From: Leucobacter sp. OLIS6
Lineage (GTDB): Bacteria > Actinomycetota > Actinomycetes > Actinomycetales > Microbacteriaceae
Assembly: GCF_002752355.1 (NCBI RefSeq)
Contig: NZ_MRAV01000014.1
Coordinates: 186,001-250,000, forward strand
Length of the DNA: 64,000 nt
Reading direction: 5' to 3'
Shown here: in pieces, positions 58,700-64,000 of the stretch
Numbering within the stretch: the stretch's first letter is position 1
How the letters are laid out: every line of letters starts with the position of its first letter
The notes under the pieces: generated by a model
Seen by the model: the letters and a program-made list of their open reading frames with translations, nothing else
Told to the model about the DNA's origin: nothing
Databases searched by the model: none
Translations under genes and position numbers: made by a program

Positions 58700-59818
58700 G
58701 TGCCGATCGTGTCATCGACTGCTCCCCGCACACTCGACGGGCCGGGCCCGCTCCGGCCCACGCGCGCGAAGGCCGGCGACTTCCCGCCGATCGCGAAGGC
58801 CTACACCCGGGTCTCCCAGGTCGTTCGGGAATCCGGGCTCCTGCGTCGCACCCCGTGGTTCTACCTGGCCGTCGGAACCGCGTTGCTGCTCGCTCTGGGC
58901 GGAGCGATCACGGGCTTCATCCTGCTGGGGGAGACCTGGTACCAGTTGCTCATCGCCGCCGCGCTCGGCATCATCTTCACCCAGATCGCGTTCCTCGCGC
59001 ACGAGGCGGCGCACCGGCAGATCCTGTCGACGGGGCCGGCGAACGACCGGCTCGCCCGGATCCTCGCCGGCGCGATCGGCATGAGCTATTCGTGGTGGGA
59101 TTCGAAGCACTCGCGGCACCACTCGAACCCGAACCGGGTCGGCAAGGATCCCGATATCGAGGTCGACACGATCTCCTTCCTCGAGGAGGACGCGGTCGAG
59201 GCCCGCGGGTTCCGACGCATGCTCACGAAGCGCCAGGGCTGGTTCTTCTTTCCGCTGCTCACCCTGGAAGGGCTGAACCTGCACCGGCAGAGCTTCGGGC
59301 ACCTCGCGAGCCGCGAACCGGTGCGGGGGCGCTGGATCGAGATCGGCATCATCGCCGCCCGCTTCGCGCTGATCCTCGTCCCCGTGTTCCTCCTGCTCCC
59401 GTTCGGCATGGCCTGCGCGTTCATGGGGGTGCAGTTCGCGGTGTTCGGCGTCTACATGGGCGCCTCGTTCGCTCCCAACCACAAGGGCATGCCGGTGATC
59501 GCGCACGATGCGAAGCTCGACTTCTTCACGAAGCAGGTGCGCACCTCGCGCAACATCCGGGGCGGCTGGTGGGCGACGTGGCTCATGGGCGGCTTGAACT
59601 ATCAGGTGGAGCACCACCTGTTCCCGAGCATGGCGCGCCCGCACCTGGCACGGGCGCGAGCCATCGTCCGCGAGCACTGCCGCACGCTGGGGGTCCCGTA
59701 CACGGAGACCTCGCTCTGGCGGTCCTACGCGATCGTGATCGCCTACCTCAACCGGGTCGGGCTCGCCGCGCGGGATCCGTTCGAGTGCCCGATCACCGCC
59801 GAGTACCGGCGTGCCTGA
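58700..59818 (+). CDS. Membrane fatty acid desaturase
   Basis: A 372-residue di-iron desaturase that introduces a double bond into lipid acyl chains. Three histidine boxes are present: HEAAH (about 102-106), HSRHH (about 136-140) and QVEHH (about 299-303), the Gln form being typical of front-end/acyl-lipid desaturases. Four membrane segments lie at about 52-100 and 215-260. There is no cytochrome b5 domain, so ferredoxin is the likely electron donor. GTG 58700 or GTG 58709 may start it; no clear ribosome site decides. Confidence 0.93.
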   Translation: MPIVSSTAPRTLDGPGPLRPTRAKAGDFPPIAKAYTRVSQVVRESGLLRRTPWFYLAVGTALLLALGGAITGFILLGETWYQLLIAAALGIIFTQIAFLAHEAAHRQILSTGPANDRLARILAGAIGMSYSWWDSKHSRHHSNPNRVGKDPDIEVDTISFLEEDAVEARGFRRMLTKRQGWFFFPLLTLEGLNLHRQSFGHLASREPVRGRWIEIGIIAARFALILVPVFLLLPFGMACAFMGVQFAVFGVYMGASFAPNHKGMPVIAHDAKLDFFTKQVRTSRNIRGGWWATWLMGGLNYQVEHHLFPSMARPHLARARAIVREHCRTLGVPYTETSLWRSYAIVIAYLNRVGLAARDPFECPITAEYRRA

Positions 59819-59862: not shown

Positions 59863-60477
59863 CTACTGAGCGGGCCAGATCCCCGAACTGCCGCGGCGGT
59901 GCGAACCGATCAGGTGGGTGTCGACGATCCCGATCGCCTCCATGAGGGCGTACATCGTCGTCGGTCCGACGAAGGCGAAGCCGCGACGACGGAGCTCCTT
60001 CGAGAGCGCGACGGACTCGGGCGAGGTCGTCGGGATCTCCTCGAAGCGCTGCGGCCGCGGGGTCTCCGCGGGTCGGAAGGACCAGATCAGCGCCGACAGG
60101 CCCACGTCCTCCCGCAGCGCGATCGTGGCGCGAGCGTTCCCGATGGCGGCGAGGATCTTCTGTCGGTTGCGCACGATCCCCGCATCGGCGAGGAGGCGTT
60201 CGACGTCCCGGTCGCCGTAGGCCGCGATCAGATCCGGGTCGAATCCGTCGAAGGCGGTGCGGAACGCGGGACGTTTGCGCAGGATCGTCGCCCAGGAGAG
60301 ACCGGCTTGGAAGCCTTCGAGCGAGACGCGTTCGAAGACCCCGCGCTCGTCGGTGACGGGCATGCCCCACTCGGTGTCGTAGTACTCGCGCAGCAGCGGA
60401 TCGACGGATGCCCATGCGGGCCGGGCGAGCCCGTCGTCGCCGATCACGACACCGGGGTCCTCGTGCGTTCCGGTCAC
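59863..60477 (-). CDS. tag: DNA-3-methyladenine glycosylase I family (Tag), second paralog
   Basis: A 204-residue Tag enzyme, third gene after the sigma factor in the alkylation-repair operon (sigma, MGMT, alkB, tag). Motifs: YYDTEWGMP, LEGFQAGLSWATILRKR with the catalytic Glu, GIVRNRQKILAAIGNARA, FVGPTTMYALMEAIGIVDTH. Like the 12863 paralog, it lacks Cys4 (Ala), His17 (Tyr) and the last Cys (Ser) of E. coli Tag. GTG 60477 has GGAGA five bases upstream, 17 nt after the alkB stop. Confidence 0.88.
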   Translation of the reverse strand: MTGTHEDPGVVIGDDGLARPAWASVDPLLREYYDTEWGMPVTDERGVFERVSLEGFQAGLSWATILRKRPAFRTAFDGFDPDLIAAYGDRDVERLLADAGIVRNRQKILAAIGNARATIALREDVGLSALIWSFRPAETPRPQRFEEIPTTSPESVALSKELRRRGFAFVGPTTMYALMEAIGIVDTHLIGSHRRGSSGIWPAQ

Positions 60478-60494
60478 GTGTGTCTCCGTTCGTC

Positions 60495-61184
60495 TCAGCC
60501 GTCGAGGCCGGTCATGCGCATGGTGATGTTGATCCGGCCGGCGCTCTTCCCGTCGGCGCCGTCGAGCCCGCAGCCGTCCGGCGCGGTGAACGGGTGGATC
60601 CGGATGACGCCGTGGTAGGCCAGGCGCGATGCTCCGCCGAATACGAACAGGTCGCCGGAGCGGAGTCGCAGATCGGTGTAGGGCCGGTTGCGGGTCTCCG
60701 TGTTGCCGAACCGGAAGGTGCAGGCATCGCCGAGCGACAGCGAGACGATGGGGGCGAGCGTCTGCTCGTCCCTGTCCTGGTGCATCCCCATCTTCGCGCT
60801 CTCGTCGTAGAAGTTCGCGAGCGCGGTGTCCGGAGTGTACGCAGCGACTTCGTGCTCGGGGGAGCCGGCCTCCCGCAGCGCACGCCGCCCGAGCCGGACC
60901 ATCCAGTCGGGGAAGGGGAGGACGCGCTGCCCGTTCACGTCGGTGGCCTCCCGCGTATACCGGTAGGGCTGCCAGTGCCAGCCGAGGCAGACGGTGCGCA
61001 CCGACATCTCGTGACCGCGCACCTTCGCGGCGCGGATCGGAACCGGGCCCGCCGTCCAGGCACGGAACTGTCCGACGATCCACGCCTGCTGCTCGAGCGT
61101 GAGCCAGCCGGGCACGTGCACGGCGCCTTCGGCGACCTCTGTGGGATGCTCCGGTGCGGAGGGGAACTCGAAGAGCTCGGTCAT
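60495..61184 (-). CDS. alkB: AlkB family 2-oxoglutarate/Fe(II) DNA dioxygenase
   Basis: Oxidative demethylase that repairs 1-methyladenine and 3-methylcytosine. The 229-residue protein has the iron triad His135-x-Asp137 (MGMHQDRDE) and His191 (AYHGVIRI), and the Arg residues that bind 2-oxoglutarate and substrate in RINITMR (217, 223). ANFYDESAKMG matches the YxxxxxxMGxHxD AlkB pattern. It overlaps the MGMT gene by ATGA and lies 17 nt before tag. Confidence 0.95.
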   Translation of the reverse strand: MTELFEFPSAPEHPTEVAEGAVHVPGWLTLEQQAWIVGQFRAWTAGPVPIRAAKVRGHEMSVRTVCLGWHWQPYRYTREATDVNGQRVLPFPDWMVRLGRRALREAGSPEHEVAAYTPDTALANFYDESAKMGMHQDRDEQTLAPIVSLSLGDACTFRFGNTETRNRPYTDLRLRSGDLFVFGGASRLAYHGVIRIHPFTAPDGCGLDGADGKSAGRINITMRMTGLDG

Positions 61185-61795
61185 GCCGCGGCCTCCATCT
61201 CGAGCAGAGCGGTCTTGGCTTCGAGCCCGCCGATGTAGCCGCCGAGCGTCCCGTCGGTGCGGAGCACGCGGTGGCAGGGGACCACGACGGGCAGCGGGTT
61301 GGTGGCGCAGGCGGTGCCGACGGCGCGGACCGCCTTCGGATTCCCGACCATCTCGGCCATCTGCTTGTAGCTGCGGGTCTGCCCGTAGTCGATCTCGGGC
61401 AGGTGCTGCTGCACGAGCTGTCGGAATCCCTTGGAGAGCGAGAGATCGAGTGCGAGGTCGAAGGTCCTCCGCTTGCGCTCGAAGTACTCGTCGAGCTCGC
61501 GGGCCGCGGTGTCGAGCCGCTTCGGTGCGCGCAGCACGCGCGGACTGACCTTGGCGGCGAGATGCTCCAGGACTCGGTCGTGGTCCTCGGTCGCGAAGGC
61601 GACGCGGACCAGTCCCCGCGGGGTGGAGGCGAGCAACAGCTTGCCGAGCGGGCTGTCGACGATGCGGTAGGCGACGTCGAGGAGCCCCTCGGACTGCGCC
61701 GAGGCCTCCAGCCGCCGGTGCAGCTCGGCGAGCGTGTCGGGGGTGACGGGTGCCGTCAGGGCGGCGATACGATCTTCGTCTCGGATGTCGTTCAT
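61181..61795 (-). CDS. ogt: Methylated-DNA–protein-cysteine methyltransferase, extended
   Basis: A 204-residue suicide repair protein that removes O6-alkyl groups from guanine. The active-site Cys174 is in the hallmark PCHRV, and YGQTRSYKQMAEMVGNPKAVRAVG is the DNA-binding helix region. Residues 1-45 form a helical extension (RIAALTAPVTPDTLAELHRRLEA) that minimal Ogt proteins lack. Its ATG overlaps the sigma gene stop (ATGA), so the two are made at matching levels. This suggests, without proof, that they interact. Confidence 0.92.
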   Translation of the reverse strand: MNDIRDEDRIAALTAPVTPDTLAELHRRLEASAQSEGLLDVAYRIVDSPLGKLLLASTPRGLVRVAFATEDHDRVLEHLAAKVSPRVLRAPKRLDTAARELDEYFERKRRTFDLALDLSLSKGFRQLVQQHLPEIDYGQTRSYKQMAEMVGNPKAVRAVGTACATNPLPVVVPCHRVLRTDGTLGGYIGGLEAKTALLEMEAAA

Positions 61796-62289
61796 GATCG
61801 TGCTCCTTCCGTGTTCGTGCCCGGATAGGTTCTTCTGAGGTTCTTGAGTCCGTCGGCGGCCGCTCTGCGTGCGGATTCGACGGTTCCGCCGAGGATCGCG
61901 GCGATCTCGGCGTAGGGCATCCCGACCAGATATCGGAAGGTGATCGCCTGGCGCTGCTTGGGCGGAAGCTCGCCGACCGCCCGCCACAGCTCGGTGTCGT
62001 CGGCGCCGGGCACCCCGAGCCCCGTCGGCGCTTCGGGGAGTTCCTCGACGGGCAACGGATTCCGTTTGCTCGCCCGATGCACGTCGATGGATTTCCGGCG
62101 GGCGATGGTGACGAGCCAGGCCTCGACGTTCGCGGTCTCGGGCAGGTCCGGGTAGGCCCGCATCGCCGCGAGAAAGGTCTCCGACCAGGCATCATCGGCG
62201 TCGTGGATCCCGAGCAGCGACCGGCAGACGCGCAGCACGGTGGTGCTGTGGAGGGCGACCACGACTTCGAACGGCTGTTTCATGTTCAT
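61792..62289 (-). CDS. ECF-type RNA polymerase sigma factor, alkylation-repair operon
   Basis: A 165-residue sigma factor. Region 2 (about 8-75) has DDAWSETFLAAMRAYPDL and WLVTIARRKSIDVHRA, and region 4 (about 108-158) has LPPKQRQAITFRYLVGMPYAEIAAILGGTVESARRAAADGLKNLR. No anti-sigma gene is adjacent. It leads sigma, MGMT, alkB, tag. ATG 62289 is chosen since the -10 element CGTC lies 9 nt upstream, giving a leaderless or near-leaderless mRNA; ATG 62283 is also possible. It likely transcribes its own operon. Confidence 0.9.
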   Translation of the reverse strand: MNMKQPFEVVVALHSTTVLRVCRSLLGIHDADDAWSETFLAAMRAYPDLPETANVEAWLVTIARRKSIDVHRASKRNPLPVEELPEAPTGLGVPGADDTELWRAVGELPPKQRQAITFRYLVGMPYAEIAAILGGTVESARRAAADGLKNLRRTYPGTNTEGARS

Positions 62290-62325
62290 CGCACTGCAGA
62301 CGCTGCGGGAGGACGTTTCGTGAGA
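62290..62325 (-). promoter_or_regulatory. ECF-type promoter of the sigma-MGMT-alkB-tag operon
   Basis: On the minus strand TCTCACG (62325-62319), 16-nt spacer, CGTCTGCAGTGCG (62302-62290), then ATG 62289. CGTC is a classical ECF -10 core and TCTCACG resembles the ECF41 -35 (TGTCACA). The -35 is also half of the palindrome CGTGAGACTCACG (62319-62331). The same 20 bases in the same spacing occur in the opposite-strand promoter. Confidence 0.8.
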
Positions 62326-62370
62326 CTCACGTCGACAATCCTCTCGCAACGATGCCCGTTGCACAGTCGA

Positions 62371-62406
62371 TCTCACGTTCCGCACCCCCCGAACGTCTGC
62401 AGTGCG
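62371..62406 (+). promoter_or_regulatory. Matching ECF-type promoter of the divergent MGMT gene
   Basis: TCTCACG (62371-62377), 16-nt spacer, CGTCTGCAGTGCG (62394-62406) on the plus strand, identical in both elements and in spacing to the minus-strand promoter. Spacer sequences differ, so the match is functional, not a simple duplication. Confidence 0.8.
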
Positions 62407-62444
62407 GGAAGATGGACCCGCGCGAGCGGAAGGAGGGTCGACGC

Positions 62445-62957
62445 ATGAGCGTTCGGCATACGGTGATCGATTCGCAGGTGGATCCGCTCCTCCTGGTGGC
62501 GGACGGCGATGCGCTGGCCGGCCTCTACTTCGAGGGGTACCGCTTCACTCCGCCGCCGGACGGGCTGGGGCCCAAGGTCGGCGCAGGATCCGATCCGGTG
62601 TTCGCGCAGGCGGCGCGGGAGCTCGCCGAGTACTTCGCCGGGGAACGACGCGTGTTCGACGTTCCCGCGGTGACCGCGGGCGATGCGATGCAGGAGCAGA
62701 TCTGGGCGCGGCTGCGCGAGATCCCCTACGGCGAGCGGGTCACCTACGGCGACATCGCCATCGGCCTCGGCGATCGCTCGCTGTCCCAGCTGGTGGGGCA
62801 GGCCGTGGGGCGCAACCCCGTCAGCATCGTGATCCCGTGCCATCGCGTGGTCGGCGCCGGGGGCAAGCTCACCGGCTTCGGCGGCGGACTGCGGCGGAAG
62901 CAGATCCTGCTGGAGCTCGAGGAGCCGGACGAGGTCCGCGGGAGCCGACTGTTCTGA
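62445..62957 (+). CDS. ogt: Methylated-DNA–protein-cysteine methyltransferase, second
   Basis: A 170-residue MGMT with active-site PCHRVVG and the AIGLGDRSLSQLVGQAVGRNP DNA-binding segment, closest in length to the minimal Ogt class. GDAMQEQIWARLREIPYGERVTYGDIA precedes it. ATG 62445 is chosen because AAGGAGG lies upstream; an ATG at 62412 is in frame. It is divergent from and probably co-induced with the sigma operon. Confidence 0.92.
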   Translation: MSVRHTVIDSQVDPLLLVADGDALAGLYFEGYRFTPPPDGLGPKVGAGSDPVFAQAARELAEYFAGERRVFDVPAVTAGDAMQEQIWARLREIPYGERVTYGDIAIGLGDRSLSQLVGQAVGRNPVSIVIPCHRVVGAGGKLTGFGGGLRRKQILLELEEPDEVRGSRLF

Positions 62958-63009: not shown

Positions 63010-63015
63010 TTGAAT
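63010..63015 (+). promoter_or_regulatory. Candidate leaderless -10 (TTGAAT)
   Basis: TTGAAT ends six bases before ATG 63022. Confidence 0.4.
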
Positions 63016-63021
63016 CGACGC

Positions 63022-64000
63022 ATGACGGAATCGCTGCGATCGGTACTGGAACGGCACGCGGCCGAGGGGGTGTTCCCCGGGCTCGTCGGCGTCGACGGTG
63101 CCGCCGACGGCGCTTTCGAAACGGTGGCGGTCGGGGCGCTGCCCGCCGACGCGATCGTGCGCATCCAGTCGATGACGAAGTCCGTGCTCGCGGTCGCGAC
63201 GCTGCGGCTGGTGCAGCAGGGGCGTCTGGGGCTCGACGACCCGGTGGAGCGGTGGCTGCCCGAGCTCGCCGACCGTCGGGTGCTGCGCGAGCCGAACGCG
63301 GAACTCGACGACACGGTGCCCGCCGAGCATCCGATCACGATCTGGCATCTGCTCACGAACACCTCCGGGTACGGGGTGATGACGGTGCCGTGCCCGTTGG
63401 GGGCGGCCATGGCGGAGGCGGGGGTCGAAGCCGGTCAGGAGCCGCTGGCCATCGGCGCGGAGGATTGGCTGCGCGCGATCGCGTCGCTGCCGCTCGCCTT
63501 CCACCCGGGGGAGGCCTGGCGGTACCACCACTCCTTCGGCATCCTCGGGATCCTCCTGTCGCGGGCGACCGGTGGCCTGGACGCGCACCTGCGGCGCGAG
63601 CTCTTCGCACCGCTCGGCATGGTCGACACCGGATTCAGCGTGCCGCGCGAGCAGGCGCATCGGCTGCCCGCGGCGGTCCGGCGCGTCGCCGACGGTTCGC
63701 TGGTCGAGGTCGAGCCGGCTGCCGGTGGGCTGTCGGCCGCTCCGGCTCCCTTCGATCTCTGCCACTCCGAGCTCGTCTCGACCGCGGCCGATTTCGCGGC
63801 GTTCGCGCGGATGCTCGCGGACGGCGGCCGCCACGACGGCCGACCGTTCCTCGCGCCGGAGCTGCTTGCCCTGATGCGAACGGATCAGGTGCCCGATCGG
63901 ATCAAGGCCGACGACAGCTTCTTCCCCGGATTCTGGGACGGCACCGGCTGGGGCTTCGGAGTCTCGGTGCTGACGCAGGGGCCGAACGCCGGGCGCTTCG
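63022..64000 (+). CDS. Serine hydrolase, beta-lactamase/EstB type (cut by window edge)
   Basis: The first 326 residues of a class C beta-lactamase-fold hydrolase. Nucleophile motif SMTK (Ser50, Lys53), HLLTNTSGYG, and RYHHSFGILGILLSRATG where the usual YSN of penicillin-recognising enzymes is YHH, so it is more likely an esterase or D-aminopeptidase than a beta-lactamase. There is no signal peptide. The C-terminus lies beyond the window. Confidence 0.85.
   Translation, partial: MTESLRSVLERHAAEGVFPGLVGVDGAADGAFETVAVGALPADAIVRIQSMTKSVLAVATLRLVQQGRLGLDDPVERWLPELADRRVLREPNAELDDTVPAEHPITIWHLLTNTSGYGVMTVPCPLGAAMAEAGVEAGQEPLAIGAEDWLRAIASLPLAFHPGEAWRYHHSFGILGILLSRATGGLDAHLRRELFAPLGMVDTGFSVPREQAHRLPAAVRRVADGSLVEVEPAAGGLSAAPAPFDLCHSELVSTAADFAAFARMLADGGRHDGRPFLAPELLALMRTDQVPDRIKADDSFFPGFWDGTGWGFGVSVLTQGPNAGRF

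Follow-up and report, generated by a model that had tools for sequence, protein, structure and literature searches.

The stretch of DNA analyzed here, a 64,000-nucleotide segment of a Leucobacter sp. OLIS6 contig that we call the window, contains at positions 59863-62957 a locus of five genes. Four form an operon headed by an extracytoplasmic function (ECF)-type sigma factor and followed by alkylation-repair genes, and the fifth is divergent from it. Two copies of a promoter-like element lie between the divergent units. The features are as follows, MGMTa and MGMTb being labels used here for the two O6-alkylguanine methyltransferases.

59863-60477, minus strand: Tag-type 3-methyladenine glycosylase, 204 aa, GTG start (PF03352 above cut-off, 220.6 bits)
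60495-61184, minus strand: AlkB-type 2-oxoglutarate (2OG)-Fe(II) dioxygenase, 229 aa (PF13532, 2OG-FeII_Oxy_2, above cut-off, 163 bits)
61181-61795, minus strand: MGMTa, O6-alkylguanine methyltransferase, 204 aa (PF01035 and PF02870 above cut-off)
61792-62289, minus strand: ECF-type sigma factor, 165 aa, ATG at 62289 (Pfam Sigma70_r2 and Sigma70_r4_2 above cut-off)
62298-62325, minus strand: promoter-like element TCTCAC-N17-CGTCT before the sigma operon (sequence match)
62371-62398, plus strand: promoter-like element TCTCAC-N17-CGTCT, with the same spacing, before MGMTb (sequence match)
62445-62957, plus strand, divergent: MGMTb, 170 aa, without the extension of MGMTa (PF01035 and PF02870 above cut-off)

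A preliminary description of this DNA had proposed the same extent, strands and gene identities, with the second MGMT divergent, and Pfam confirmed them. It had also proposed that the operon genes are tied by ATGA overlaps. This holds for the sigma stop and MGMTa start (61795-61792) and for the MGMTa stop and alkB start (61184-61181), both 4-bp overlaps, but not for alkB and tag, where 17 nt separate the end of alkB (60495) from the GTG of tag (60477). The sigma factor belongs to the ECF type, as Pfam matched regions 2 and 4 (r4_2) with no region 3 or other sigma domain, and the NCBIfam sigma70-ECF superfamily model gave 62.2 bits (cut-off 42.9). Pfam found no anti-sigma domain in the five genes, and both genes flanking the sigma gene are MGMTs. 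The acceptor motif PCHR is present in MGMTa and MGMTb, and the Pfam matches of MGMTa begin only at residue 42, behind an N-terminal extension of about 40 aa. The AlkB-type protein scores below the NCBIfam alkb equivalog cut-off (92.5 vs 231.05 bits) and the Tag-type glycosylase slightly below that of the tag subfamily (221.7 vs 232.5 bits).

The two elements are unusual for the window and for the genome. YCTCAC-N17-CGTCT has 2 sites in the window against 0.15 expected, a number reached in 0 of 100 shuffles, and exact TCTCAC-N17-CGTCT occurs in the whole genome at these two places only. The ATG of the sigma gene begins 8 nt past CGTCT, and the sigma message of the window is probably leaderless. 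A leaderless message is likely in relatives as well, because the start codon lies 6-12 nt downstream of the -10 in 20 of 80 related loci. These relatives are the top 80, by sigma similarity only, of at least 578 confirmed in the named genome collection, and they are not independent of each other (21 are Arthrobacter or Paenarthrobacter); identity to the window sigma is at least 57% in all 80 and about 60% or above in 57. In 42 of them the exact element was found at 64 sites, whereas 20 first-order Markov shuffles averaged 1.0, and only with a spacer of 17, since spacers of 12-16 and 18-23 yielded 0-3 sites. The form YCTCAC-N17-CGTC[TG] lies within 1 kb upstream of the sigma gene in 76 of the 80 loci and on the opposite strand in one, L038, where MGMTb runs divergently, like that of the window. 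Four loci miss it: L073 and L094, as well as L079 and L111, where the difference is one or two letters. Of another 38 loci, which include L038 again under the handle L009, 24 had YCTCAC-N17-CGTC within 900 bp.

The association extends to whole genomes. We searched a class sample of 296 genomes and an order sample of 179 genomes from the order of the window; the two overlap, and their p values are uncorrected for relatedness. At a threshold of E 1e-20 the sigma gene was found in 40 and 59 genomes, respectively, the 59 reaching down to 32% identity, so that the distant ones perhaps belong to another group. A strict form of the element, CTCACRTTY-N13-CGTCTDC, gave 14 sites in 12 genomes of the class sample (reversed control, 1 site), being present in 11 of the 40 sigma-bearing and 1 of the 256 sigma-less genomes (Fisher p 7.9e-10). 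It likewise gave 14 sites in 12 genomes of the order sample (reversed control, 0), with 10/59 sigma-bearing and 2/120 sigma-less genomes (p 3.1e-4). The strict form is missing from most sigma-bearing genomes (29/40 and 49/59). No YCTCAC-N17-CGTC was found in the 4.5-5 kb around each of six MGMTa relatives from genomes without the sigma gene.

The genes next to the related sigma genes are also alkylation-repair genes. Among the 80 loci, MGMTb is in the flanks of 58 (on the same strand just upstream in 57, divergent in 1), AlkB of 39, Tag of 36, a PF09859 oxygenase of 35, a SnoaL-like gene of 8 and a small Ada-Zn-like open reading frame (ORF) of 32, all lower bounds because contig ends cut some flanks. 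In addition, strict sites far from the sigma gene are followed by MGMT genes in G141 and G377 and, in G105, by a protein resembling the PF09859 oxygenase (by eye). The element also adds genes without a clear repair role to the set. A 244-aa short-chain dehydrogenase/reductase, identified by Pfam on the G095 copy, lies behind a strict site in G095, G236, G217 (adjoining MGMTa) and G380 (far from sigma), at loci L192, L193, L194 and L208, and SnoaL-like genes lie behind element sites near the operon (L043:9463, L058:10081, L060:4699 and L064:10910).

It is likely, then, that the ECF sigma factor runs an autoregulated alkylation-repair regulon, a judgement that covers the regulon and its autoregulation and not the step by which damage would be sensed. 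We infer that the element is the promoter of this sigma factor and that alkylation is its signal. With core RNA polymerase, the sigma factor would recognize YCTCACRTTY-N13-CGTCTWC (-35 CTCAC, a 17-nt spacer, -10 CGTCT) and transcribe its own operon, sigma-MGMTa-alkB-tag, together with the divergent MGMTb. The products would jointly repair O6-alkylguanine, N1-methyladenine/N3-methylcytosine and 3-methyladenine, and autoregulation would provide positive feedback. A regulon led by the sigma factor had been put forward in the preliminary description; it is now supported, at the level of sequence, because one element is common to both divergent units and conserved among close relatives, and the presence of the element goes with that of the sigma gene. 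The constant pairing of sigma and MGMTa and the avoidance of Ada within the order, both described below, also speak for this reading.

Some observations weigh against this reading. When one mismatch is allowed, the element has 11 places in the window genome and its reversed control 19; by itself the motif is thus unspecific, and its weaker sites are noise. The element is missing from the other 14 of the 38 further loci. In seven distant pairs of sigma and MGMT genes, whose sigmas are 36-46% identical to that of the window, the element is missing even in relaxed form from six and has CGAC at the -10 in the seventh, which makes it a feature of the closer group. Three of the 24 strict-site genomes of the two samples (the window genome, G000, being counted twice) have no sigma gene, and no recognized repair gene stands behind the sites in these three (G252, G361 and G461). 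Finally, strict sites precede genes without an evident alkylation link in G383 and G445 and a RecO-like frame in G432 (by eye).

Among the neighbors of the sigma gene, MGMTa is the sole constant partner. It lies directly 3' of the sigma gene in 80/80 loci, and on this ground a chance neighborhood of the two genes was rejected. In the class sample, where MGMTa was called in 46 genomes at E 1e-38, all 40 sigma-bearing genomes have both matches on one strand and 0-161 bp apart; an exception with the sigma gene and no MGMTa, L013, comes from a fragmented genome outside this sample. A 4-bp overlap joins the sigma stop and the MGMTa start in 70 of 79 loci (L083 was left out of the start and extension counts for its broken frame). 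No in-frame junction of the two genes was seen in these 79 loci, in which the start offsets range from -17 to +61 with no multiple of three, fused proteins not having been searched for specifically. The distant pairs keep both the pairing and an overlap of 4 to 25 nt in 7/7. Broken or split MGMT matches were noted in L041 and L069 (MGMTb) and in L083 (MGMTa).

In all 79 MGMTa proteins the MGMT core is preceded by 26-68 residues. In the AlphaFold2 model of the window MGMTa, the extension forms helices at residues 6-14 and 19-35, and its successive blocks over residues 1-40 have predicted local distance difference test (pLDDT) values of 53, 73, 89 and 92. Across the 80 aligned rows L25, L29, D40 and the acceptor site PCHRV (Cys174) are invariant. 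By sequence no solved MGMT has such an extension: two engineered fusion chains match from residues 13 and 19, and no other match begins before residue 37. Foldseek ranks 1-38 are all MGMT entries, aligned over 161-181 columns to the 204-residue query.

The constant pairing, the stop/start overlap and the helices of the extension lead us to propose MGMTa, as a hypothesis, as an alkylation-gated anti-sigma factor and the best candidate for the sensor. MGMTa would hold the sigma factor inactive through its N-terminal extension and free it once the acceptor cysteine is alkylated. Such a suicide anti-sigma factor would make the repair enzyme count lesions directly and start its own replacement. We hold this step as tentative, possible rather than probable. 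No coevolution signal was found between the sigma factor and the extension, which counts against contact, in an alignment of 80 pairs whose effective number, 42.7, is too small to exclude it; the extension took a share of 0.30 of the top 200 pairs, with 0.28 of the usable columns. The distant pairs weigh both ways and leave our estimate of the sensor step where it was: all seven keep the overlap and extra residues before the MGMT core, but their extensions show no evident LxxLHxxL helix pattern.

The strongest alternative, to which we give a little less than an even chance, makes MGMTa a target and nothing more. Without a post-translational partner, the sigma factor would be as active as it is abundant; its expression would be started by a weak basal promoter or through another regulator, perhaps the Ada-AlkA protein described below, and be amplified by autoregulation. 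This comes close to ECF41, whose neighboring enzyme genes, according to passages of PMC3426412, bear the promoter motif and were the only targets detected. The missing coevolution signal and the fact that distant pairs do not keep the helix pattern agree with this alternative, and so does the inspection by eye of the six MGMTa relatives from sigma-less genomes, two of which keep the helix (L185 and L187) while four lack it (L186, L188, L189 and L190). Against it, MGMTa is constant whereas MGMTb, AlkB and Tag vary among the 80 loci, its start is tied to the sigma stop by the 4-bp overlap, and no starter for the sigma gene was found.

That another regulator or another sigma factor binds the element, with the window sigma acting elsewhere, we consider unlikely. 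The element is tied to the window sigma by association, and in the part of PMC3426412 that we cite the ECF41 promoter is similar (TGTCACA-N16-CGTC). Also, in G169 (contig C39, L196) an ECF41-like sigma gene (by eye) lies behind a strict site, which may reflect cross-talk or a chance match to a similar ECF41 promoter. However, the element tracks the window sigma gene across genomes, is shaped like an ECF promoter and stands 6-12 nt before the sigma start in a quarter of the 80 loci, as expected of a transcription start. Direct sensing of alkylation by the sigma factor through Cys22 in region 2 is very unlikely: this cysteine is invariant in 80/80 aligned sigmas, but the more distant L020 has no Cys there, and its position within a predicted helix (residues 7-26) suggests that an invariant Cys may be structural. 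It is hardly credible that the repair genes were clustered by chance or neutrally behind an unrelated sigma gene, since the pairing is constant over many Actinomycetota families and the promoter-like element is shared, common though clusters of repair genes are in general.

The regulon that we favor, led by the sigma factor, can be compared with known systems. It resembles the ECF122 group, which the excerpted text of a review (PMC8999054) places among the ECF groups without an anti-sigma factor, with '6-O-methylguanine DNA methyltransferases' as neighbors and a mechanism given as unknown. The likeness, a conserved MGMT neighbor and no anti-sigma gene, is judged by this description of the group, whose representative sequence is WP_057211282.1. 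If ECF122 is the same group, the neighborhood is already in print as an uncharacterized ECF group, and the present analysis adds to that excerpt the promoter element, the regulon and the relation to Ada; the element makes the activation of this MGMT-linked ECF group testable and allows the regulon to be predicted in other genomes. Our literature search, outside which lay the ECF classification paper and its possible promoter prediction, returned no title or abstract dealing with control of alkylation repair by a sigma factor, nor the promoter, the wider regulon or the avoidance of Ada.

With ECF41, as far as the cited portion of PMC3426412 describes it, the system shares the lack of an anti-sigma gene and a neighboring enzyme gene under a similar promoter. 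Unlike ECF41, the window sigma has 165 aa with no C-terminal extension and no SnoaL match, its associated enzymes are DNA-repair enzymes, and the element (TCTCACG, -35 CTCAC, with CGTC 17 nt past TCTCAC) has a related but different -35. A classic ECF sigma/anti-sigma pair likewise lies in an autoregulated operon, in which the gene 3' of the sigma gene, at the usual anti-sigma place, is translationally coupled to it; here, in contrast, the coupled gene encodes a DNA-repair methyltransferase without a Pfam anti-sigma domain.

The adaptive response of bacteria to alkylation has been described in terms of Ada, and control by a dedicated sigma factor through a promoter of its own would, if confirmed, be a second way of organizing it. 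The locus shares with the Ada response of E. coli the activities of MGMT, AlkB and a 3-methyladenine glycosylase. It differs in that a sigma factor heads the operon, in which Pfam found neither an Ada Zn domain nor an AraC-type helix-turn-helix (HTH), and in that the glycosylase of the operon is Tag; E. coli Tag is not known to be controlled by Ada, AlkA being used there. A distant parallel is the subject of a paper title in the reference list of PMC4437013, the contact of E. coli Ada with a sigma subunit.

The preliminary description had stated that no Ada is present and that the sigma factor replaces it. The first statement is right for the window, as the only match to the Ada Zn-binding family in the genome lies outside it, on contig C17 (other AraC-type regulators of the window were not searched), and wrong for the genome. 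Contig C17 encodes a 523-aa Ada-AlkA fusion with Ada_Zn_binding, AraC-type HTH, AlkA_N and HhH-GPD domains, next to an AdaB-type MGMT (L003, L005 and L006), which rules out a genome without Ada. Membership of this Ada gene in the sigma regulon was rejected as well, no element with up to two mismatches being found in the few hundred bases upstream of its start.

The second statement stands in part. In the order sample the sigma gene and Ada occur about equally often (in 59 and 62 of 179 genomes, Ada being called at E 1e-15), with 51 genomes carrying the sigma gene without Ada and 54 the reverse. Both occur in only 8 genomes against 20.4 expected (Fisher p 2.4e-5), namely G000, G380, G382, G398, G419, G432, G445 and G484, and in the families f7, f9 and f12 some members carry the sigma gene, others Ada, and none both. 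The class sample, where the Ada Zn domain was called at E 0.001 in 212 of 296 genomes, shows no avoidance, with Ada in 25 of 40 sigma-bearing and 187 of 256 other genomes (p 0.19); G266 counts there as Ada-positive weakly (E 5.7e-4), perhaps through a small Ada-Zn-like ORF. The sigma gene and Ada therefore avoid each other within the order and not class-wide, and the window genome, which has both, is an exception. If MGMTa were a suicide anti-sigma factor, part of the order would rely on a sigma-based adaptive response in place of Ada.

The distribution of the sigma gene is patchy; a genus search found a close homologue in 5 of 37 genomes including the window genome (G000, G017, G018, G021 and G030; E 9.9e-59 or lower). 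A clade of 13 sigmas around that of the window (support 97/99) mixes Microbacteriaceae, Micromonosporaceae, Streptosporangiaceae, Thermomonosporaceae, Intrasporangiaceae and Streptomycetaceae, which together with the patchy presence points to the spread of the sigma module by horizontal transfer. The sigma gene was also seen on three plasmid records (NZ_LR134464.1, NZ_AP024649.1 and NZ_CP110616.1, from Tsukamurella, Arthrobacter and Rhodococcus), which fits transfer of the module. The window MGMTb groups not with the usual upstream MGMTb but with a second, stand-alone MGMT found in L056, from a Streptomyces relative (support 100/99), which carries the same promoter-like element, so a different MGMT seems to have come under the same control.

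Other features of these genomes were also noted. The PF09859 oxygenase, to which Pfam assigns a damaged-DNA substrate (e.g. L048:7106-7846), is common in the operons of relatives and absent from that of the window. The Ada-Zn-like ORF of about 90 aa (L048:7843-8118 and L043:7837-8127) matches Ada_Zn_binding weakly (28.2 and 23.9 bits, cut-off 23) and appears to have a Gly at the position of the methyl-accepting Cys38 of Ada. The locus is bordered by genes for a fatty-acid desaturase (58700-59818) and a beta-lactamase-family protein (63010-64000), with no evident repair link. Outside the locus there are two more MGMT-type genes in the window genome (3.33 Mb, 22 contigs), on contigs C17 and C21. 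The one on C21 (L004:1351-1689, minus strand) encodes a 112-aa MGMT-family protein that is alkyltransferase-like (ATL), because, by eye, WWR stands where the acceptor CHR is expected.

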